Positions 33,510 to 61,534 of a stretch of 64,000 nt of DNA are shown here, one piece after another (within the stretch, counting starts at the first letter, position 1; each line of letters begins with the position of its first letter). Source of the DNA: a virus; IMG/VR virus record IMGVR_UViG_3300005563_000004, positions 1-64,000 of that record. The stretch is one strand, 5' to 3'. The position numbers and the translations under genes were made by a program. The notes beneath the pieces were generated by a model. It made no database searches. It was not told where the DNA came from and was given only the letters and a program-made list of their open reading frames with translations.

Positions 33510-34418
33510 ATGCCTATTAACAGAGCTTCAGCCCGCGACCTTCTCCTCCCAGGTCTTGCGGACATCGAGGGCAAGTATCCTCAGCTGCCGACGCGGTACA
33601 AGGAATGGGCGTCGACCAGCACCTCCAAGATGGCCATGGAGCGCATCGATGAGATGCGGTACACTGGCCTGGCCCAGCTCAAGGGCGAAGGCGCGGCGAC
33701 CACATTCGACAACGCTTCCGGCCAGCGTTTCACCTACGTCGCCAACATGATCAACGTGGGCCTTGGCTTCGCCATCACCCGCGAGATGCTGGACGACAAC
33801 CTCTACAAAGAGCAGTTCGGACCATCCTCGATGGGGCTGGCGGAGTCTTTCGCCCAGTTCAAAGAGGTCTACGTCCACACGCTGCTGAACAACGCCACCA
33901 CCTACAACAGCGAGATCGTCGCTGACGGTGTGGCGCTGGCGTCAACGGCGCATCCTATCGACAACGGCACCTACGCCAACACCTTCTCCACGCAGCTCGA
34001 CTTCAACGAGGCGGCGGTGGAGTCGGCGCTGAACACCATTCGCCTCTGGCCGGATCAGGCCGGACTGCTGGCCATGGTGCGCGCCCGTAAGGTGGTGGTG
34101 CCGGTGGCGCTGTCATGGGCAGCTGAGCGGCTATTCAAGACCGAACTGCGCACCAACACCAACAACAACGACGTGTCGGCGATCATCACCTCTGGCGCCA
34201 TGCCGGAAGGCTACGTGGTCAGCGAATTTCTCACGTCGTCGTTCGCCTGGTTCGTCATGACGAATGTGCGCGGGCTTCGGGTGTTCGACCGCATCCCGTA
34301 CGAGATGGACCTGCAGGTCGATCCGACCACGGGCAACCTGCTGGTTGTCGGGTACGAGCGCTACGGCATCACCTACAGCAATCCGCGCTCCGTATTCGTC
34401 AGCACGCCGACCTCTTAA
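33510..34418 (+). CDS. Major capsid protein
   Basis: 302 residues. A capsid of the HK97-fold class is suggested by the N-terminal arm and long helix (PTRYKEWASTSTSKMAMERI), the FTYVANMINVGLGFAITREM strand-helix, the A-domain strand VVVPVALSWAAERLFKTELR and the closing YERYGITYSNPRSVFVS. The sequence resembles Mu-like head proteins (gpT pattern) in its N-terminal half. No cleaved delta domain is visible, in keeping with a separate scaffold gene. Coding position after scaffold and a GroES-like gene fits. Identity is by pattern and order. Confidence 0.82.
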   Translation: MPINRASARDLLLPGLADIEGKYPQLPTRYKEWASTSTSKMAMERIDEMRYTGLAQLKGEGAATTFDNASGQRFTYVANMINVGLGFAITREMLDDNLYKEQFGPSSMGLAESFAQFKEVYVHTLLNNATTYNSEIVADGVALASTAHPIDNGTYANTFSTQLDFNEAAVESALNTIRLWPDQAGLLAMVRARKVVVPVALSWAAERLFKTELRTNTNNNDVSAIITSGAMPEGYVVSEFLTSSFAWFVMTNVRGLRVFDRIPYEMDLQVDPTTGNLLVVGYERYGITYSNPRSVFVSTPTS

Positions 34419-34430
34419 GGAACCCAGCTA

Positions 34431-34910
34431 ATGCCCGGTCCCGGTAGCACCTCGCTAGGCGGCCCGATCATGGTCGGCACCAAGCTGGCAAATCCTCCGG
34501 CTGGTAACGGCGACATCGGCACGGTCGTTCTGCAGCAGGACGTGACGCTGACGCACAACGGCACGAACACCGTCGATCAGACGCTGCTCCTGCCTGGTGG
34601 CGCGCAGATCATCGACATCATCTCGGACACGACCACCGCCTGGAACTCGGCCACCTCCGACACGTTGTCGGTCGGGCTGACCTCTGGCGGCACGGACTAT
34701 GCGAGCGGTGTCGATGTTAAGGCTGGTGCCGCGCGCATCCGGCCGACATTCACCACGACGCAGCTGACCAACATGCTGAACATCGGCACTGGCTCGCCGC
34801 AGATCACCATCCACGCGACGGTGACGCCGGTTGGTTCGGCTGCTGCTGGCGTAACGACCGTCACGATCCTCTACCTCATGACCGTGCAGTCGACGCTGGG
34901 CACCTCATAG
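34431..34910 (+). CDS. Head structural protein candidate (159 aa)
   Basis: Follows the capsid by 12 bases with AAGGAA in front. A beta-rich, Thr/Gly-rich protein (GTVVLQQDVTLTHNGTNTVD; ITIHATVTPVGSAAAGVTTV) typical of decoration proteins. No charged coiled coil and no signal peptide. Unnamed family; role inferred from position. Confidence 0.66.
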   Translation: MPGPGSTSLGGPIMVGTKLANPPAGNGDIGTVVLQQDVTLTHNGTNTVDQTLLLPGGAQIIDIISDTTTAWNSATSDTLSVGLTSGGTDYASGVDVKAGAARIRPTFTTTQLTNMLNIGTGSPQITIHATVTPVGSAAAGVTTVTILYLMTVQSTLGTS

Positions 34911-48685: not shown

Positions 48686-50521
48686 GTGACCACGATCTAC
48701 ATTGTCGGCGCTGGCGCCGGGACTTTTACGCCGCCCTCAACGGCCACCGCCACTGTTGACTGTTTCGGCGCCGGTCCCGCAGGCGGCGTAGGGGGGACTG
48801 GTGGCGGCAGCGCGGGATGGGCGCGGAAGAATTCACTTAGCCTAACTCTAGGTGTCGGGGTCAGTTTTAACCTTGGCGCTCCGGGCGTAACGGCATCACA
48901 GGCTGGCGGCAATACTTGGTTCTCTAGCACTGCAACTGTCCTTGCTGCTGGCGGTCTCTCGGGAACGACTCAGGTCGGTGACTCGACCTTTGCTGGCGCA
49001 GGTCAACAAACGAGCGCGCCGGTAGGGAACGCTGGCGGCGCTGGGGCGGCTGGCCCAAACGGCGCAGGTAAGCTGGGTGGTGCCGCCCCCAACACGGGAG
49101 GTGGGGGCGGTGGGGGTAATGGCGGCGGCGCTGTTGGGCAGGATTCTCCTGTCAGCGGCAACGGCGGCAATGGCGGCAATGGCTTTGCGGGCACAGGCGG
49201 CACGGGCGGCGCGGGTGCTGGTGCGCCTGGTGGAAATGGTTCGGGCGGGGCTGGCGCTGGTTCCAGTGGCGGAGCTGGCGGCAACGGCGGTGACGACTTC
49301 GACAATGGAGGCGGTGGTGGTGGTGGCACTCCACCTGGGGCAAACGGAGGCACCACGGGTGGTATTGGTGGTACTCCGGGTGGTGGAGGCGGATCTTCGG
49401 CCGGCGGGCAGTCCGCTGTTCGGGGCGGCTATGGTCTCATCAAGATCACCTATCCTGGGTCTGATCCAGACCGGATAATCTTCGGCGGCGGGATCACTCA
49501 GGCGCAAATCCTGACGAACATTCCGGCCTCGTGGAACGGCACCTATACTGTGGGCGTGATGAACGGCGGCTTCACCGTTCTCACGCAAGGTGCGCCGCTG
49601 GTACTGCCGTCAGTCTATGGCGACAATCCTAAGCTGATCAGGCGCCCAGGTCGGATCGGTGGCAAGCGCATCACACCGCGGCCAATCCGCGATTATTCTA
49701 CGCCAGCCAGTAACATAACGGTCGCACCGGACGTTGGCTCGATTGTCTTTACCGGCCTGGCTCCTTCAGCCGATGAAAGTCTGCTTCCCGGCGTTGGCTC
49801 GATCCTGTTCACAGGACAGGCGCCATCAGCAAACGAAGCTGTACAGCCTGGCGCTGGATCGATCGTCTTCACTGGCCTGGCTCCTTCGGTCGGTGAAAGT
49901 TTAGCTCCCGGCGCCGGCTCGATCCTTTTCACCGGCAATGCTCCGTCAGCCGACGAAAGCCTGTTGCCCGGTGCTGGCTCGATCTTGTTTTCAGGGCAGG
50001 CGCCATCCGCAGATGAAGCGCTGTTGCCCGGCGCCGGATCGGTGCTGTTCACCGGGCTGGCGCCGTCAGTAAACGAAGCGCTTCTGCCTGGTGTCGGCGC
50101 GATCGTCTTTACCGGCAACGCTCCGTCGCTTTTCGCTGAAGCGGTAGCGTCGAGACTTCCGCGTCAGCTGGGTCGTGGCCCGCGACCGCTCATTCCGCAT
50201 CCGCTGCGCGACTACTCCGCCACCGTATCGAGCCTATTCCCAGATGCTGGCTCGATCATATTCACTGGCTTGGCGCCAAGCCTCGATGAGATGCTATCCC
50301 CAGGTGTCGGATCAGTCGTCTTCACGGGGCAGGCTCCATCTGCGGATGAAAGCCTGCTTCCTGGCGTCGGGTCGATCACCTTCACTGGCCTCGCGCCGAC
50401 GCCGCTTTACAACGTGGCTGTCGCGCCCGGTGTTGGCTCGGTGTCGTTCACCGGCTTTGTTCCGACAGTGACAGCACCGCCGACGCGCGCCATCGTTGCA
50501 CAACCAGCGTTCTTGTGGTGA
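48686..50521 (+). CDS. Glycine-rich adhesin-like protein with 20-aa repeats
   Basis: 611 residues from GTG 48686. Residues about 110-235 are extremely Gly-rich (GGGGGGNGGG, GGNGGNGFAGTGGTGG), like the polyglycine-II sandwiches of T-even-type receptor-binding tips, and close in YGLIKITYPG. After a spacer come 11 repeats of VGSIVFTGLAPSADESLLPG (seven, then a 30-residue break, then four). The two linkers before the repeat blocks (RPIRDYSTPAS and HPLRDYSATVS) are alike, so a block was duplicated. Probably a host-binding tail protein. Confidence 0.74.
   Translation: MTTIYIVGAGAGTFTPPSTATATVDCFGAGPAGGVGGTGGGSAGWARKNSLSLTLGVGVSFNLGAPGVTASQAGGNTWFSSTATVLAAGGLSGTTQVGDSTFAGAGQQTSAPVGNAGGAGAAGPNGAGKLGGAAPNTGGGGGGGNGGGAVGQDSPVSGNGGNGGNGFAGTGGTGGAGAGAPGGNGSGGAGAGSSGGAGGNGGDDFDNGGGGGGGTPPGANGGTTGGIGGTPGGGGGSSAGGQSAVRGGYGLIKITYPGSDPDRIIFGGGITQAQILTNIPASWNGTYTVGVMNGGFTVLTQGAPLVLPSVYGDNPKLIRRPGRIGGKRITPRPIRDYSTPASNITVAPDVGSIVFTGLAPSADESLLPGVGSILFTGQAPSANEAVQPGAGSIVFTGLAPSVGESLAPGAGSILFTGNAPSADESLLPGAGSILFSGQAPSADEALLPGAGSVLFTGLAPSVNEALLPGVGAIVFTGNAPSLFAEAVASRLPRQLGRGPRPLIPHPLRDYSATVSSLFPDAGSIIFTGLAPSLDEMLSPGVGSVVFTGQAPSADESLLPGVGSITFTGLAPTPLYNVAVAPGVGSVSFTGFVPTVTAPPTRAIVAQPAFLW
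49733..50500 (+). repeat. 60-base coding tandem repeats in two blocks
   Basis: Units begin at 49733, 49793, 49853, 49913, 49973, 50033 and 50093, exactly 60 bases apart, then at 50246, 50306, 50366 and, six bases late, 50432. Each encodes a 20-residue repeat. Units vary at the third codon position, so they are not identical. A similar lead sequence precedes each block. Confidence 0.85.
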
Positions 50522-50884: not shown

Positions 50885-52092
50885 TGCCGTGGTCTGGGCA
50901 GTCCTTTCAAAAGCACAACCACGCACTGCACGGCGCGAAAGCTGAGCACGCAGCACATATTGCTAACGCGGTGTTAAAATCTGGTGTCGATGAAGGCGAA
51001 AGCATCGCCATCGCGAACAAGTGGGCGCAGCATCACGCGGACGGCGGCGCCATCAAGCACAGCAAAGATTCGCCCGAGGTACAGTACGGCCACGGTATGC
51101 CGAGTGCCCACTGCGGGATCTGCTCGCACTTCCGCGCGCCGCATAGCTGCGAGGTGGTGGCGGGCGAAGTCAGTTCGCAGGGCTGGTGCAAGCTGTTCAA
51201 GCATCGCGAGAGCCGCGGCATGGGTGGCCCGATCGGCTACGATGGTGGTGGGATGATCGATCCGACTGCCGGCTCCGTCGCGCTCAATCCGCCGGCACTG
51301 GGCGGCATAACGCCATCGGCATCCACGGCCTCGCCGATGATAGCGCAGACGCTGCAACGTTACGCGCAGATGCCGACCGAGAAGCTGCAGGAAATGGCCA
51401 TGGTGATGGGCAATTCTCCGCAGGGGAAGATGGTCAAGCGGGCGCTGATGCAGAAGCATATGGTGCCACAAGTGCAGCAGGCGGTTCCGCAGCAGCAAGC
51501 ACCGGCCATGGGCCAGGCGGCTGGTGGCCCGGTTGCACACCGCGACATGGGTGGTGGGATGCTCGGCATGGGTTTGTCGCAGGCTGAGCCGTGGTGGACG
51601 CGATCGGAAGCGCGCGGTGCTGACGCGGGACCAATGACCGGCTACCTGCATGGCGCTACCGCCGGCCGTGCCGATGCGCTCAAGGGCACGGCGCTGTCGG
51701 ATAGCTATATCCTGCCGGCGGAGGAGATTGCCGGGCTGGGCGAGGGCAACAGCCTCATGGGCGCTCGTGTGATCAACGCCATGCTGGGAAGTGGTCCGCA
51801 CGGCATTGCGCAGCCCCATGGTCGCGCCGGTCACGGGCCACCGCGTCCGCCGGCTCCGCCACGCGAGTATCAAGCCAAGGGCGGCGGAGTGCAGCAGGGC
51901 GAGCAGCCAACAACCAAAGTCGCACTGAGCCACGGCGAATACTCAATGACACCAGAGCAAGTGATGCAGTTCACAGGAAGGAATGATTTGAAAAGCGCAC
52001 ACCGCGTCATGGACCTGTTCACCATGGAGCTGCGGAAGCGGCACATCAAGGAATTGAAAGGACTCGAACCACCGGTTGGCAGCAAACAATGA
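50884..52092 (+). CDS. Structural/assembly protein with four-Cys HiPIP-like motif
   Basis: 402 residues. Residues 76-107 (HCGICSHFRAPHSCEVVAGE, then VSSQGWCKLFKH) carry Cys77, 80, 89 and 102 in the order of small high-potential iron-sulphur proteins, a motif many phage proteins share; whether it binds a cluster is unknown. The rest is low complexity (Gly/Met/Gln/Pro), with ATAGRADALKGTALSDSYIL and VALSHGEYSMTPEQVMQFTG near the end. The final motif (LSHGEY-[VS]-[MI]-x-P) is common in virion proteins of podophages. Likely a minor virion or assembly protein. Confidence 0.72.
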   Translation: MPWSGQSFQKHNHALHGAKAEHAAHIANAVLKSGVDEGESIAIANKWAQHHADGGAIKHSKDSPEVQYGHGMPSAHCGICSHFRAPHSCEVVAGEVSSQGWCKLFKHRESRGMGGPIGYDGGGMIDPTAGSVALNPPALGGITPSASTASPMIAQTLQRYAQMPTEKLQEMAMVMGNSPQGKMVKRALMQKHMVPQVQQAVPQQQAPAMGQAAGGPVAHRDMGGGMLGMGLSQAEPWWTRSEARGADAGPMTGYLHGATAGRADALKGTALSDSYILPAEEIAGLGEGNSLMGARVINAMLGSGPHGIAQPHGRAGHGPPRPPAPPREYQAKGGGVQQGEQPTTKVALSHGEYSMTPEQVMQFTGRNDLKSAHRVMDLFTMELRKRHIKELKGLEPPVGSKQ

Positions 52093-52643
52093 ACAACCCG
52101 CACGGCGTACGTCGCGCCACCGACGCGGACATTCCCGGTCTCCTGACCCTCGTACCGCAGATCCTCGCCGAGAGCGAAGTGCTGGCACTTTCCGAACCGA
52201 AGATTCGGACGCTGATCGAAAAGTGCTGCCAGCGCCAAGCCGGCGCCATCGCCGGCATCATCGACGGCGCGGCCGGCGTGATCGACGCCAGCATTGGCAT
52301 GACTTTCGCTCAGTCCGAAGTGTCGGACGAGCCGTATATCTCGGTGGTGTGGTTCGGCCTGGCGCCGCACGCGCGCACGTTGCCGCAGGACATTGCCGCG
52401 GTGCCCGACCATCCGCGGGCGCATTACAGCCGGCGCCTGGCAAACTTCGCCAAGTGGACGCATGAGACGGCGGAAGCCGCCGCCGGCCATCGGATCATCA
52501 TGCGGTGGGACGTGCTGACGCTCGAAAGCCTCGGGCCGAAGCTGAACATGTACGGCCGCAACTTCCCCCAGGTCGGCGCCTATTTTGCGCTCGGCGCAGC
52601 CGGCACGTTCAAGCCGCGCGGGCAAAGCGTTGAAGCTGCCTGA
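52089..52643 (+). CDS. GNAT-like acetyltransferase (first of two)
   Basis: 184 residues overlapping the previous stop. The opening NNPHGVRRATDADIPGLLTL matches the R-x-AT-x-x-D-x-x-x-L front of GNAT enzymes, with IAGIIDGAAGVIDASIGM and EPYISVVWFGLAPHART as the central strands. The acetyl-CoA pyrophosphate loop (Q/RxxGxG/A) is not obvious, so it may be a degenerate or virion-associated form. Phage GNAT proteins often lie near the end of the tail block. Substrate unknown. Confidence 0.68.
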   Translation: MNNPHGVRRATDADIPGLLTLVPQILAESEVLALSEPKIRTLIEKCCQRQAGAIAGIIDGAAGVIDASIGMTFAQSEVSDEPYISVVWFGLAPHARTLPQDIAAVPDHPRAHYSRRLANFAKWTHETAEAAAGHRIIMRWDVLTLESLGPKLNMYGRNFPQVGAYFALGAAGTFKPRGQSVEAA

Positions 52644-53133
52644 CAGGGTCCGGCTCGCCCAACCGTCCGACCTGGACCGGCTCTGCGATTTTTGTTGGGT
52701 CGCTGCGGCCGATAATGGCCTTTTCCCGCTGGCGCCGGCCAAGGTCATCGATCTCCTGAAGCGCGCATGCTGGCGGTCGTCTGATCCGCCGGCTGTCATT
52801 GGCTTGATCGATGGGCCGGGCCGGATCGAGGCGGCGGTTTACCTGGATGCCATGACCCACTGGTATTCGAACTACTGGTTATACGTTGATCGCTTTCTCT
52901 ATGTGCATCCTGCCCATCGCCGCAGCCGGCACGCCTTCCGGTTGTTGCAGTTCTGTCGTTTCTGGTATGAAGCCAACGGGGTGCCTGTTGTCCTCACGAT
53001 CGAGACCCTGAAAGAGCGGGAGGGCAAGGAGCGCTTGTATAGCCGTTACGCGCGTCGCGTCGGCGCCAGCTTCGTCATTGGCGAACTGTGTGTGGAGAAC
53101 GCGACGGATGGGCAAGGGATCAAGCGGCAGTAA
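52630..53133 (+). CDS. GNAT-like acetyltransferase (second of two)
   Basis: 167 residues with a TTG start at 52630 inside the previous gene. The pattern VRLAQPSDLDRLCDFCWVAA, EAAVYLDAMTHWYSNYWLYV, DRFLYVHPAHRRSRHAFRLL is a GNAT fold with strand 4 and the cofactor loop region HPAHRRSRHAF. An adjacent GNAT-like gene suggests duplication and divergence. No SD is clear, so the start is uncertain. Substrate unknown. Confidence 0.7.
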   Translation: MKLPDRVRLAQPSDLDRLCDFCWVAAADNGLFPLAPAKVIDLLKRACWRSSDPPAVIGLIDGPGRIEAAVYLDAMTHWYSNYWLYVDRFLYVHPAHRRSRHAFRLLQFCRFWYEANGVPVVLTIETLKEREGKERLYSRYARRVGASFVIGELCVENATDGQGIKRQ

Positions 53134-56122: not shown

Positions 56123-59100
56123 ATGGCCGGCCCCTGGACAGAGTTTCAGGGCGGCGACCTCGACCGCTTCTACGACGATGCGGGTAAGCAGAACGGTGTC
56201 GATCCCGATCTGCTGCGATCCGTCCACAGCGTAGAAAGCCGCGGCAACGATATGGCCGTGTCGCCGGCCGGGGCGCTGGGCCGCGGCCAGTTCCTGCCTA
56301 GCACCGCGCGCTCCGTTGGAATGACCGACCCGTTCAACGCACGGCAGTCGATCTACGGCACCGCAAAGTACCTCAAGGTGCTGTCGGGCGAACTGGGTGA
56401 CGATCGGCTGGCAGTCGCTGGTTATCACGGTGGCCCGAACACGCAGGAGTGGGGGCCGAAGACCGCACAGTACGTCCAGCACGTCAGCCAGGACTATCAG
56501 CAGCGGAAGGCCGCCGAAGCACCGCCGCCTTCTGGGCCGTGGACGCAGTTTCAGAAGCAGCCGCAACAGACTGGGCCGTGGGCGCTGTTCCAGCAGCAAG
56601 ACGAAGGCCGACCGCTGACGAACGCAGAGGCGGTGAAGCAGCTGCCGATGGCGGAGAGGGACGAGGGCACTGCGCAGCCGCAGATCCAAGTCGGCAACGG
56701 CGCTGATCTGGCGAAGGTGCTTTCGTCGCCCGAAGCGGAGGCTGCCGATATTCCGCAGTCGCAAGCGCCAGCGGACACGTCAGAAATCCAAGAGGCGATG
56801 CGTAAGGCATATGCCTCAACGCCACCGCTGGTTAATCCGCAGTCGGGCACCGGTCAATGGTTGTCGCAGCACGGCATGAGTGGGCTGACGCAGCCGATCG
56901 TGCCGATGGCGGCGATGAATGCCGGCTGGGCCGGGCTGTCGGAAGCAGCGATCGAGGCGACGAAGCGATACGCGGGCGAGGGCGCAGCGAAGACTGTCGG
57001 ACAAGTGATGGAGATGGCCGGCTCCGGTGCATTGGCACCGGAACTGATGGGCGGTGGAATGCGGATGCATGAGGCGCCTGCGGCTCCGGTGTCTCCGCCC
57101 GGAGTAAGACCGGAGCCACAGGCTACGGCGCAGACGCTACCGCAGCGTTCTGCTACCCCAACGCTTGATGCGGTTGCAAGCGAAGCGCGCGCTCGCGCGC
57201 AAACGCCGGAGCAGGCAGCGCTGGACGAACTGCACCAGCAAGCCGCGCCGGCACCGGAGGCGCCCGCTGGATCGGCGATCGAGGCGCTGAAGAAGCAGGC
57301 GGCGACAGACACGCCAGCCGCGCCGATGCAGCAACCTCCGCCATCACCCGCAGGCACACCGGCAACAGAGCCGCCGTTGCCAGCCGCGCGCATGGAGACG
57401 CCACCACCTACACCGCCCGACGTGCGCCAGCGCCTGGCGGAAGTCAGCGCGAAGGAGGCGGAGCTATCGAAGGCGGAGGAAGCGGCAAATGCGCCGGCTC
57501 CTGAAGTCGACAAGGCAACAAACCGACCGGCCGGAAGCTGGGTCGCGGTCAGTAAGGAGACAGGCCAGCCTGTTCTCGAGACATTCGAGAAGCAGACGGC
57601 CGACGCCATCGACAAGTCGAAATACGATGTGCTGCCAGCTGGCGAATATCTCGGCAACCTAAACAAGCAGATACGCGAAGGGCAGGCGCCAGAGGAGACG
57701 CCACCGACGCCACCAGCTCCACCACCGCGCCGCGGTGAGCCGACGCCATTCGAGAAGCTGCCGCGCGAGCCGATGCGGCTAGTGGAATGGCTGAAGCAGA
57801 ACGGCGGCATCAAGGATGAAGGCGGCGATCTGAACGCCATTCTCGGCGGCAGCAAAGGGCGCCCCGGCCTGATCAACAACAAGCGCGGCGCCACACTGGA
57901 CGACGCGGCGCACGCAGCGTGGCAGGCCGGCTATCTACCCGATGCCTCCCGGCCCGACACAAACGCGCTGCTCGACGCCATCCGCGATGACCACACCGGC
58001 ACCAAGCGGTACAGCCAGCAAGACTTCGATCGCGTGCAGGACTACCAGGAAGCGGTCGGGCGCAATGAGGAAGTCGATCGCCTCGCCACGACGCACGAGA
58101 TCGAGACGCGCGGCAAGACGCGCGATCAGTTCTACGACGAGCTGCACGACCGGCTATCGACCGAAGACCGGGCGCGCGAGATCGCGGAGCAGGAAGCAGG
58201 CTTCCTCGACGCGCAGCGCGAACTGGATCGTGGCGCGCGAGAGCACAAGCCGGAGCCGGAAGCAGGACTTGCGCCGTCACCGTGGAACGCGCGAGAGTTC
58301 TACGGCCAGTCGCAGGCGCGGACGCTGGAGGATTTAGAGCGTGAGCATCGCGAGGAGACACATCCTGCAGCAGCGCAGCAACGCGGTGAAGGTGCTGAAC
58401 GACCCGCACCTGCCGCACCACCTGAAGGTGTCGGCCAAGAAGCTGAAGGACCACGCGGACGTGCTGCTGGGGATGCAGGACGCGGCGAAGCGGTCAGCGC
58501 AGAAGCGGGAATCGCAAGGCCGTGGGAGCAAGGCGGCAAGCAGAGGGTCTACTTCAACCTAGGCCGCGGCAAGTCTGGATTCATTGAACAGACTGCTCAC
58601 AACGGTGATTACGACTGGACGATGCGCTATCCGACAGCCAATCGGGGCGGCGAAAAGGTGCGCGACGCAATGCACCAATGGATGGCCGAACGATTCGGCA
58701 ACGAGCGCAATCCACAATGGTCTGAGATATGGGACCGTGCCAACGGCAAGACGCCTGCGGCTGACCTCCTCGGGCGACAAATAGCCGAACCACGCGCCAA
58801 GGCCGGCGCCGAACCGACCATCCGCAACGACCCGAACCAGATCGGCATGCCCGGCATGGAGGCGTCAGCCGTCCAGGCACAGGCCGCACGAGACGCGCAG
58901 GGCCGCGGCGCACTGCAATCTGAAGCACCGCAGAAGCCCGCGAACGAAGGGCTGTTCGCGCCAGACACGACAGGGCAGGGGACGCTGTATAGCTTCCCCG
59001 GAGCGTTGGTTGATCCAGAGGCATGGCGCCGGGCGTTCGGCCCGCTGGCGCCGGCACTGACGCGGCTGCGCGACAGTTCGCGCGCACTGGCCAAGACGAT

Positions 59101-61534
59101 CGCCGATGGCGTTGCACCGATGCAGTCGGGCACGAAACGTTCTCAGGCGTTTGCGGCCGATTTCGCCAATGGATTGCGCCAAATCAACTATCGATTTGGC
59201 GAAATTGACAAGGAAATCGAGGGTGCGTTCCCTCGCCAGGAACGCGATGCGATGGGCCGCGCGCTCGACGCGCAGTCGGTGTTTGAGCAGCAGCTGCGCC
59301 AGATGCCGCCTGAGATGCGGGACGCGGCACGCGCCGAGTTCGACAGCGGCGGCACGGGACTGGCCGGGCTGAACGAACGCCAGCGCCAGGTCATCGACTC
59401 GCTGGACGCCATCTCGCAGGATGTGTGGCGGCGGATGCAGGAGCGCGGCATGGTCGCGCCGCAAGCGCAGGGGCTGCCCTATTACATGCCGCGGCAGATC
59501 CTGATGTGGTCTGAGGAGAACGGCTTTCAGCGGCCAGGCAGCGGAGGTCCCACCGCGAGCATCGGCATCGATGGCCGCGGCGCGAACCTGACCACCGCCG
59601 GCCCGATGAGCCGCGAGCATCTGACGCCGGAGGAGACCGAAGCCGCAGCGCGAGCCAAGCTGGGCGAGGGGGCGCAACTGCTCCGCGACATTCGCTCGCT
59701 GCCGGCGCGGCTGGCATTTTCGGAACGGGCGATCGTCGGCACCGATTTGATGAACCGGATCGATGAAGTCGGCAAGCAAACCGGCGTCAACCTGATGGTG
59801 CGCGGCGACATCCCCGGCCTGCTCAATCCAGGCGACTACTTCACCATGGCTGACCATCCGTCGTTCCGTCGCTGGACCGGCACCGGCTGGCAGGCGCTGC
59901 ACGTCGCCAAGGAGTTCGAGGGGCCGCTGAAAGCGGTACTCAGCAAGAAGTCGCCGGAGTGGTATCGCGCGGCGCAGAACCTCAAAAGCGGCATCATGTC
60001 CGCGATCATGTATTCGCCGCTCATCCACCTTGCCGTGGAACTGGGCCGGTCACTGCCGGTCATGCCGATGCGTGTGCTGACGCTGCAGGTAATACGCGAT
60101 GGTGGCCGCTTGCGTGGTGATCGCAGCTACATGGAACAGGCAGTGCGCGACGGCCTCTCGCCGCTCGGCCGGCGCGGCTGGGTCGACGTAGCCTCGATTG
60201 CCGACCAGGCGCGCGAGCCGCCGGTAGAGAGCGCGCTGCGGCGCACCATCATGGCGATACCGCACGCCTGGGACCAGATGCACCAGCGGCTGCTCTGGGA
60301 TCAGGTGTTCAATCTCCAGGTCGGTCTCTACGACGGCATGCGGTCCAAGTTCATTGCCAAGGGCTTCGAGCCTGACGTGGCCGGCACGATGGCGGCGCAC
60401 CTCGCGAACCGTTACGCGGGCGCATTGCCGCCGGAGCATCTGAGCCGCGAAGCCAACATGATGGCGAACCTGCTGCTGTTCTCGCGGTCCTTCACGCTCG
60501 GCAACCTCGGCGTGATGAAGGACATGTTCAACGGCGCGCCATCGCAGATCCGCGCCCGCATCGAGCAGATGGCTGGGCCGGAGGCAGCGAAGTCGGCGCA
60601 GTCTGCGCTCCGCCGCAAGGCGCTGACCGCCTTCGCCATGGATGTTGGCCTGTTCTATTCGGCGAACGCGCTGCTGCAGGCTGGTCTACAGGTGATGCGC
60701 CAATCGCAAACGTCCGGCCTGCCGCAAGCCGCGCAGGACGTGTTCAACCAGTGGTACGACGAAGCCACATCAGCCGTCGCGCATGCCGGCTCCAACCCGC
60801 TATCGATCTTTGGAGTGCTGCCGCAGCACTGGAACGAGCCGGGCAAGCAAGACCGCGTTTACGCCGGCACCGACTCCACTGGCCGCGGTGTCTACCTGCG
60901 GCTGCCGCCGGGCAAGGTGGGCGAGGAGTTCATGGGCTGGTTCGCCAAGCCTGGCACCATGCTGATGAACAAGGCGTCGCCGCTGGTGCGGCCGATCATC
61001 GAATTGATCATGGGCCACGATAGTCTGGGCCGTGAGCTGCTGCCGCCGAACCCGCGGACGATCGGCGATTACGTCGACACGGCCGGTGCGATCGTGAAGC
61101 ACATCGGCGAGAACCTGGGACCGACATCGACGCTGCAAGGACTGCATGAGATGTACCAGCAGCACATCCAGGGGAAGCCAACGCAAGCCGATCCCGGCAT
61201 CTCAGCGGCGAAAGTGCTCGCCCCACTGACTGGATTGGCACAGGTCAGCCAAGGCTATCCTGGCGGCCCAGCGGCAGGCGAGATTCATGCGCAGGACGAG
61301 CGGCAGAAGTATGCCATTCAGCATGCTCTGCCTGGCGTCCGAGAGAAGATCAGGGCAGGGGACACAGAGGGCGCGGTGGCCGATATGACCAAGCTCGGCG
61401 TTCCGCCCGGCCTTCAGCGATACTACCTGCGGCAGACCATCAATCCGCAACCGTCGAGGCGAGCGCTCCAAAACTTTCAGCGCACCGCTCCGCCGGAGGT
61501 TATGGAGCGTTACCAGCGGCAGGTTTCGCCGTGA
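56123..61534 (+). CDS. Giant ejection protein with N-terminal lytic transglycosylase
   Basis: 1803 residues. Residues 10-130 are a Slt-type transglycosylase: catalytic Glu38 in SVESRGND, then SPAGALGRGQFLPSTA and VAGYHGGPNTQEWGP. The short motif GPW-x-x-FQ recurs at residue 3 and twice near 137-155. A long Pro/Ala/Glu-rich linker follows. The C-terminal half (about 960-1800) is helical with LFARSFT-like LLFSRSFTLGNLGVMKDMFN and looks like a T7 gp16-type internal core protein. The protein would form the channel through the cell wall for DNA entry. Residues 740-790 lie over another ORF (58341) with odd codon composition. Confidence 0.85.
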   Translation: MAGPWTEFQGGDLDRFYDDAGKQNGVDPDLLRSVHSVESRGNDMAVSPAGALGRGQFLPSTARSVGMTDPFNARQSIYGTAKYLKVLSGELGDDRLAVAGYHGGPNTQEWGPKTAQYVQHVSQDYQQRKAAEAPPPSGPWTQFQKQPQQTGPWALFQQQDEGRPLTNAEAVKQLPMAERDEGTAQPQIQVGNGADLAKVLSSPEAEAADIPQSQAPADTSEIQEAMRKAYASTPPLVNPQSGTGQWLSQHGMSGLTQPIVPMAAMNAGWAGLSEAAIEATKRYAGEGAAKTVGQVMEMAGSGALAPELMGGGMRMHEAPAAPVSPPGVRPEPQATAQTLPQRSATPTLDAVASEARARAQTPEQAALDELHQQAAPAPEAPAGSAIEALKKQAATDTPAAPMQQPPPSPAGTPATEPPLPAARMETPPPTPPDVRQRLAEVSAKEAELSKAEEAANAPAPEVDKATNRPAGSWVAVSKETGQPVLETFEKQTADAIDKSKYDVLPAGEYLGNLNKQIREGQAPEETPPTPPAPPPRRGEPTPFEKLPREPMRLVEWLKQNGGIKDEGGDLNAILGGSKGRPGLINNKRGATLDDAAHAAWQAGYLPDASRPDTNALLDAIRDDHTGTKRYSQQDFDRVQDYQEAVGRNEEVDRLATTHEIETRGKTRDQFYDELHDRLSTEDRAREIAEQEAGFLDAQRELDRGAREHKPEPEAGLAPSPWNAREFYGQSQARTLEDLEREHREETHPAAAQQRGEGAERPAPAAPPEGVGQEAEGPRGRAAGDAGRGEAVSAEAGIARPWEQGGKQRVYFNLGRGKSGFIEQTAHNGDYDWTMRYPTANRGGEKVRDAMHQWMAERFGNERNPQWSEIWDRANGKTPAADLLGRQIAEPRAKAGAEPTIRNDPNQIGMPGMEASAVQAQAARDAQGRGALQSEAPQKPANEGLFAPDTTGQGTLYSFPGALVDPEAWRRAFGPLAPALTRLRDSSRALAKTIADGVAPMQSGTKRSQAFAADFANGLRQINYRFGEIDKEIEGAFPRQERDAMGRALDAQSVFEQQLRQMPPEMRDAARAEFDSGGTGLAGLNERQRQVIDSLDAISQDVWRRMQERGMVAPQAQGLPYYMPRQILMWSEENGFQRPGSGGPTASIGIDGRGANLTTAGPMSREHLTPEETEAAARAKLGEGAQLLRDIRSLPARLAFSERAIVGTDLMNRIDEVGKQTGVNLMVRGDIPGLLNPGDYFTMADHPSFRRWTGTGWQALHVAKEFEGPLKAVLSKKSPEWYRAAQNLKSGIMSAIMYSPLIHLAVELGRSLPVMPMRVLTLQVIRDGGRLRGDRSYMEQAVRDGLSPLGRRGWVDVASIADQAREPPVESALRRTIMAIPHAWDQMHQRLLWDQVFNLQVGLYDGMRSKFIAKGFEPDVAGTMAAHLANRYAGALPPEHLSREANMMANLLLFSRSFTLGNLGVMKDMFNGAPSQIRARIEQMAGPEAAKSAQSALRRKALTAFAMDVGLFYSANALLQAGLQVMRQSQTSGLPQAAQDVFNQWYDEATSAVAHAGSNPLSIFGVLPQHWNEPGKQDRVYAGTDSTGRGVYLRLPPGKVGEEFMGWFAKPGTMLMNKASPLVRPIIELIMGHDSLGRELLPPNPRTIGDYVDTAGAIVKHIGENLGPTSTLQGLHEMYQQHIQGKPTQADPGISAAKVLAPLTGLAQVSQGYPGGPAAGEIHAQDERQKYAIQHALPGVREKIRAGDTEGAVADMTKLGVPPGLQRYYLRQTINPQPSRRALQNFQRTAPPEVMERYQRQVSP
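58341..58562 (+). CDS. Candidate overlapping gene inside the transglycosylase (73 aa)
   Basis: GTG 58341, nine bases after GGAGG, opens a 73-codon ORF in the +1 frame of the 1803-residue gene. The first 50 codons have G or C at 49 of 50 third positions; the enclosing frame over the same DNA has 15 of 50, against about 70 percent in the preceding stretch. The protein (MSIARRHILQQRSNAVKVLN, HHLKVSAKKLKDHADVLLGM) is helical and basic; the enclosing frame gives Pro/Ala/Gly/Glu-rich linker. Selection therefore seems to act on this frame. A frameshift pair in the large gene is an alternative. Confidence 0.55.
   Translation: MSIARRHILQQRSNAVKVLNDPHLPHHLKVSAKKLKDHADVLLGMQDAAKRSAQKRESQGRGSKAASRGSTST

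Follow-up and report, generated by a model that had tools for sequence, protein, structure and literature searches.

The window analysed here, 64,000 nucleotides of the viral record IMGVR_UViG_3300005563_000004 (67,331 bases in all), carries a giant gene within which a much smaller open reading frame lies complete, one base out of phase, with both frames open (Table 1). Of the several unlike domains that would mark a polyvalent protein, Pfam recognises only an SLT lytic transglycosylase domain in the enclosing protein of the window; an LPD38 domain is present in the enclosing protein of a relative (L018). The gene directly upstream of the giant gene has a PHROG match to a DNA-ejection protein, and in phage MEP301 a gene remotely similar to the enclosing region adjoins an annotated internal virion protein. 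Ahead of the ejection-type genes, at 52089-53133, are two overlapping reading frames, the second with a weak match to GNAT acetyltransferases, and MW202801 (L103) has an annotated acetyltransferase at a similar position. The window also encodes, at 48686-50521, a Gly-rich protein without a clear Pfam domain, whose second half consists of many repeats of a unit like SADESLLPGAGSILFTGQAPS. Another viral contig, IMGVR_UViG_3300025949_000100, has the identical sequence across the 9,791 bases compared and may derive from the same sample.

Table 1. Features of the giant gene and of the reading frames nested in it (window coordinates, except for the family B example)
Feature	Position	Strand	Remarks
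Enclosing giant gene	56123..61534	+	ORF, 1803 aa; distantly similar by tblastn to structural/virion proteins of phages
SLT lytic transglycosylase domain	56177..56449	+	Residues 19-109 of the enclosing protein; Pfam PF01464, E 7.6e-14
Conserved module of the enclosing protein	57779..58066	+	Residues 553-648, LVEWL...DDAAHAAWQAGYLP; motif served to find relatives
Predicted ribosome-binding site of the nested gene, GGAGG	58327..58331	+	9 bases before GTG; also part of the frame-0 LED codons
TAG in the +1 frame	58335..58337	+	Two codons upstream of the nested GTG
Nested gene, family A	58341..58562	+	GTG start, 73 aa, TAG stop, +1 frame
Frame-0 linker over the nested core	58343..58516	+	Rich in Pro/Ala/Gly/Glu; open, not conserved
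Nested gene, family B example	L072:5746-5934	-	Predicted helical hairpin encoded in the +1 frame of a giant gene of this type

The nested frame had been noticed in a sequence-only reading, which described a GTG-started +1 frame of 73 codons with GGAGG upstream, and both elements are indeed present. Its codon counts were reproduced exactly: 49 of the first 50 nested codons end in G or C, as do 15 of 50 when this stretch is read in the enclosing frame, and the enclosing frame directly before the nested ORF, put at about 70 percent, has 36 of 50. Codon statistics derived from the remaining genes of the phage, applied along the whole 1803-codon gene, put the +1 frame ahead of frame 0 only at about 58313-58550, plus one marginal stretch at 58673; the nested signal weakens about 15 codons 5' of the nested stop, where that of frame 0 returns. 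The encoded protein, which includes the peptide VLNDPHLPHHLK, begins VSIARRHILQQ..., and the TAG shortly upstream means that the nested frame of the window can be entered only at or after that point. If the enclosing residues are kept, 92% of recodings of the window (85% on average over the loci described below) leave 50 codons of the +1 frame without a stop, so that openness alone says little.

Relatives were sought by several routes. A blastn search with the locus found no match among cultured phages, and 8-mer searches with the single protein returned the identical contig only and nothing from the genome contig collection. Because the alignment A1 was too diverged for pattern searching, degenerate DNA patterns were built by hand. 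The pattern for the enclosing-protein motif D[DE]AAxxAWxxGY[FL]P retrieved 43 viral contig stretches, and in five diverged contigs of this set translation and tblastn located the nested peptide, each time shifted by +1 from the long frame. Patterns for nested motifs added L052-L054 and then L080-L082, and a scan for the enclosing-frame motif DKAGNIRLD added L058, L060, L061, L064, L066 and L073. The resulting family A comprises 18 distinct loci, the window and 17 further viral contigs (L069 duplicates L058, and L076 duplicates L073), with a conserved core that corresponds to about the first 53 codons of the nested gene. Profiles exposed as chance the pattern matches in L055 (Ferrimonas), the only one among 84,980 prokaryote species genomes, and in L083; a weak match within the window at 34361-34498 has an internal stop and was not confirmed by the profile.

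In all 18 loci the peptide lies in the +1 frame and the enclosing frame is open throughout the region, the opposite of homologues in which stops interrupt the +1 frame under a conserved long frame. A profile search by record found one copy in 18 of 19 records and none elsewhere in the record, and the profile detected neither an in-frame nor a stand-alone copy in any of the loci examined with it. In 11 of the 18 loci the stop of the nested gene lies right next to the enclosing-protein motif DKAGN(I/L)RLD; the motif is absent from the window. One close relative of the enclosing protein (L046:146-3184, 63% identity downstream) is missing residues 678-954, the nested gene included, owing to either a natural deletion or an assembly gap; if the assembly is sound, at least one relative can do without the gene. 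The distribution in the 18 loci bears directly on an alternative raised in the sequence-only reading, two compensating frameshifts. These, natural or introduced by sequencing, would have occurred in one lineage, and the +1 stretch would be ancestral in-frame sequence of the giant protein. The switch in codon bias, taken alone, would look the same under this scenario, which nevertheless predicts in-frame relatives, and none was found: the peptide is in +1 phase in all 18 diverged contigs, every one of them keeps a start codon at the junction, and the second contig is identical. A sequencing fault, whose correction might have restored a single frame, cannot yield the same arrangement in 18 separate contigs. 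We regard compensating frameshifts as very improbable.

The nested frame is also the better conserved of the two. Mean pairwise amino acid identity over the 153 pairs of family A loci is 41% for the nested frame, 30% for the enclosing frame and 31% for the third frame, so that the enclosing sequence is here no better conserved than an unused frame, and nested identity exceeds enclosing identity in 145 of the 153 pairs. In the 33 closer pairs, third positions of nested codons changed at 0.40, against 0.63 and 0.60 in the flanks, and amino acid identity was 56% against 40% and 39%. A GC-rich linker whose +1 frame is fortuitously open and rich in G or C at third positions would account for the openness, as the recodings indicate, but not for the conservation of one particular protein sequence whose fold is predicted with confidence: real sequences scored 33-85 bits in leave-one-out profiles, whereas 200 synonymous recodings of each enclosing frame gave at most 17.7, and composition or chance is in our judgement barely credible. 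These scores and the differences in the closer pairs point to purifying selection on the nested protein over and above what the enclosing frame would account for. Conversely, when the nested residues are held fixed and recoded, the enclosing frame stays open in 0.4-45% of cases (mean 15%), and it was observed open in 18 of 18; since the loci are of common descent, joint probabilities make the evidence look stronger than it is and are indicative only. As the origin of the nested frame, chance, sequencing error and compensating frameshifts can be all but dismissed, and the overlapping gene under selection proposed in the sequence-only reading is borne out, together with its description of the enclosing protein at this point as Pro/Ala/Gly/Glu linker: the long frame is open, unconserved and of low complexity. 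The sequences compared show a conserved +1 frame and start codon, one copy per record and always this place, and both frames are maintained, the nested one for its sequence and the enclosing one at least for its openness. With conservation in the nested frame and mere low-complexity filler in the long one, the small gene may have been there first and the giant frame extended across it, and not the reverse.

How ribosomes would enter the nested frame is suggested by its start region. An ATG or GTG stands at the junction in 18 of 18 family A loci, within frame-0 codons as varied as CGT, AAT, GAT, CAT, AGT and TAT (Arg, Asn, Asp, His, Ser and Tyr), whose sole common feature is (A/G)T|G, which creates an RTG start. 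The GGAGG of the window, with a duplex energy of -9.3, outranks about 98% of the gene's remaining +1-frame positions in strength, and anti-SD binding at nested starts is stronger than at other +1 positions over the family (Fisher 4.6e-11, for loci that are not independent). In L053, L061, L066, L081 and L082 the spacing between GAGG and start is about 6 bases rather than about 9; two of these loci, L053 and L061, also have their start two codons later, as if start and SD had shifted together. L025 has a weak SD only. Because the GGAGG is partly forced by the Glu-Asp codons of frame 0 (shuffles retaining these residues keep a 4-base SD in 60% of cases on average), it is supporting and not decisive. 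The nested gene thus has conserved start signals of its own, of which the SD is partly confounded by frame-0 residues.

SD-like sequences can also stimulate +1 slippage, as in prfB, and a programmed +1 frameshift near LEDLER would yield a truncated giant protein with the hairpin at its end and no separate small protein. Such an event would likewise conserve the +1 frame and the nested stop, and an SD-like sequence does lie at the junction, where stimulation of the prfB type is conceivable on general grounds. However, there is no conserved slippery codon or stop at the junction, where the frame-0 codons vary and RTG alone is shared, and the start and its SD spacing suit initiation and co-vary between loci. 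We therefore consider a frameshift unlikely. The ORF at 58341-58562 is very probably a genuine protein-coding gene that lies entirely inside, and in +1 phase to, a transglycosylase-containing giant virion gene of an uncultivated tailed phage, and its translation is about as probable. Most likely, ribosomes would initiate internally on the late mRNA of the giant gene at GGAGG-N9-GTG, the product would be a soluble two-helix hairpin of 73 residues, and the same bases in frame 0 would form a tolerant linker that joins two portions of the giant protein.

Family A is not the only peptide nested in this type of gene. The DKAGNIRLD scan ignored the nested frame and can be taken as an unbiased sample; all 27 of its loci carry nested family A, a different +1-frame peptide (family B, MPDLKxLQxKL..ARQEVRNLxVMAMRPDQSPEKxELxxxLERSARAEVKLRxKALxHQ), or both. 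Family B is not present in the 64,000-nucleotide window. A later scan added five contigs, for a total of 25 distinct family B contigs, all with the peptide in +1, L059 and L068 being the least certain members (37 and 35 bits). Identity is 46% for the nested frame of family B, 30% for the enclosing frame and 28% for the third. L043, L054, L058 and L073 have both families, B upstream of A in one giant gene, and together the two families amount to 43 nested genes in 39 contigs, 43 of 43 in the +1 frame and none in-frame or stand-alone. Profile comparison did not show homology between A and B (probability 0.3%); they agree in predicted fold only. In L065, near 7021 (strand coordinates), an unclassified +1 ORF stands directly before DKAGNIRLD, at the place of A, with B about 730 bases upstream; it is possibly a third or a decayed nested gene.

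AlphaFold2 predicts two-helix hairpins for both, with helices at residues 3-19 and 26-61 in family A (mean pLDDT 88.4, core about 97) and at 4-26 and 32-61 in family B (pLDDT 95). The nested protein has no convincing match in Pfam, PHROG or NCBIfam, where the best hits (E 0.0003-0.1) are scattered and not common to members, and Foldseek against PDB and BFVD returned nothing with E below 0.06, only generic hairpins. Family B likewise lacks a convincing counterpart in Pfam and PHROG. Searching 50,697 cultured-phage records by tblastn with the A and B consensus sequences gave no match at E up to 10, and neither family is present in MEP301 or ctQWt234, which are remotely similar to the enclosing region. 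The nested gene was never found away from the giant gene, which suggests, more tentatively than translation itself, that its product could be expressed together with the giant protein and serve as its partner, perhaps as a chaperone in assembly or as a small component of the virion or ejection apparatus. Equally real, the gene might instead encode a late host-directed small effector, or an inhibitor or antidote of a domain of the giant protein, a possibility that we rate slightly lower still (this judgement concerns the role only and is not to be added to the others). LPD38, found on one relative's enclosing protein, is a domain of polyvalent proteins, which are thought to be injected into hosts (PMC5512222), in keeping with an effector; the nested protein, however, has no convincing match in sequence or fold to an effector, antitoxin or anti-defence protein. 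The virion and ejection associations of this gene type (SLT, LPD38, the upstream PHROG match and MEP301) favour a partner over a free host-directed effector or inhibitor.

Gene callers seldom retain embedded genes. Rz1, an outer-membrane lipoprotein, belongs to a lysis cassette. Nested genes are already known, such as Rz1 in lambda (PMC8785237, PMC8227390), and a guide to phage annotation counts Rz1 in Rz among the best examples and embedded genes as rare in Caudoviricetes (PMC8785237). The present case is alike in that a small gene occupies another frame of a larger tailed-phage gene, but its product is a predicted soluble hairpin without a lipoprotein signal, the N terminus has no hydrophobic lipobox sequence that would mark an o-spannin, and the host gene is a virion gene and not part of a lysis cassette. 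The sgl genes of leviviruses (PMC7693330) are likewise small, embedded in other genes and overlooked by annotation; unlike family A, which is predicted soluble, conserved in sequence and found in dsDNA phages, they encode RNA-phage lysis proteins without mutual similarity. The enclosing gene itself, giant and linker-rich, with SLT here and LPD38 in a relative, resembles those of polyvalent and internal virion proteins, and a word search for 'overlapping' in the polyvalent-protein paper (PMC5512222) gave no hit. No description of the nested arrangement was found in the part of the literature covered. What sets the finding apart is a pair of conserved, predicted-soluble families that sit inside a virion gene and have no counterpart in Pfam, in PHROGs or among cultured phages.

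Two unannotated families in one gene type, spread over 39 viral contigs and missing by tblastn from cultured phages, illustrate that codon bias alone can expose hidden conserved genes. The locus is a natural case of dual coding, with a linker as its unconserved reading, and it raises the question of why partner genes should be locked within a virion gene. We lean towards the view that there is a widespread group of uncultivated phages whose giant virion or ejection gene regularly hosts, in its linkers, one or two +1 genes for small hairpin proteins (A and B), so that the same DNA would specify a linker and an independent partner. If this is true, the presence of two sequence-unrelated families at equivalent sites would mean that the arrangement itself is selected.
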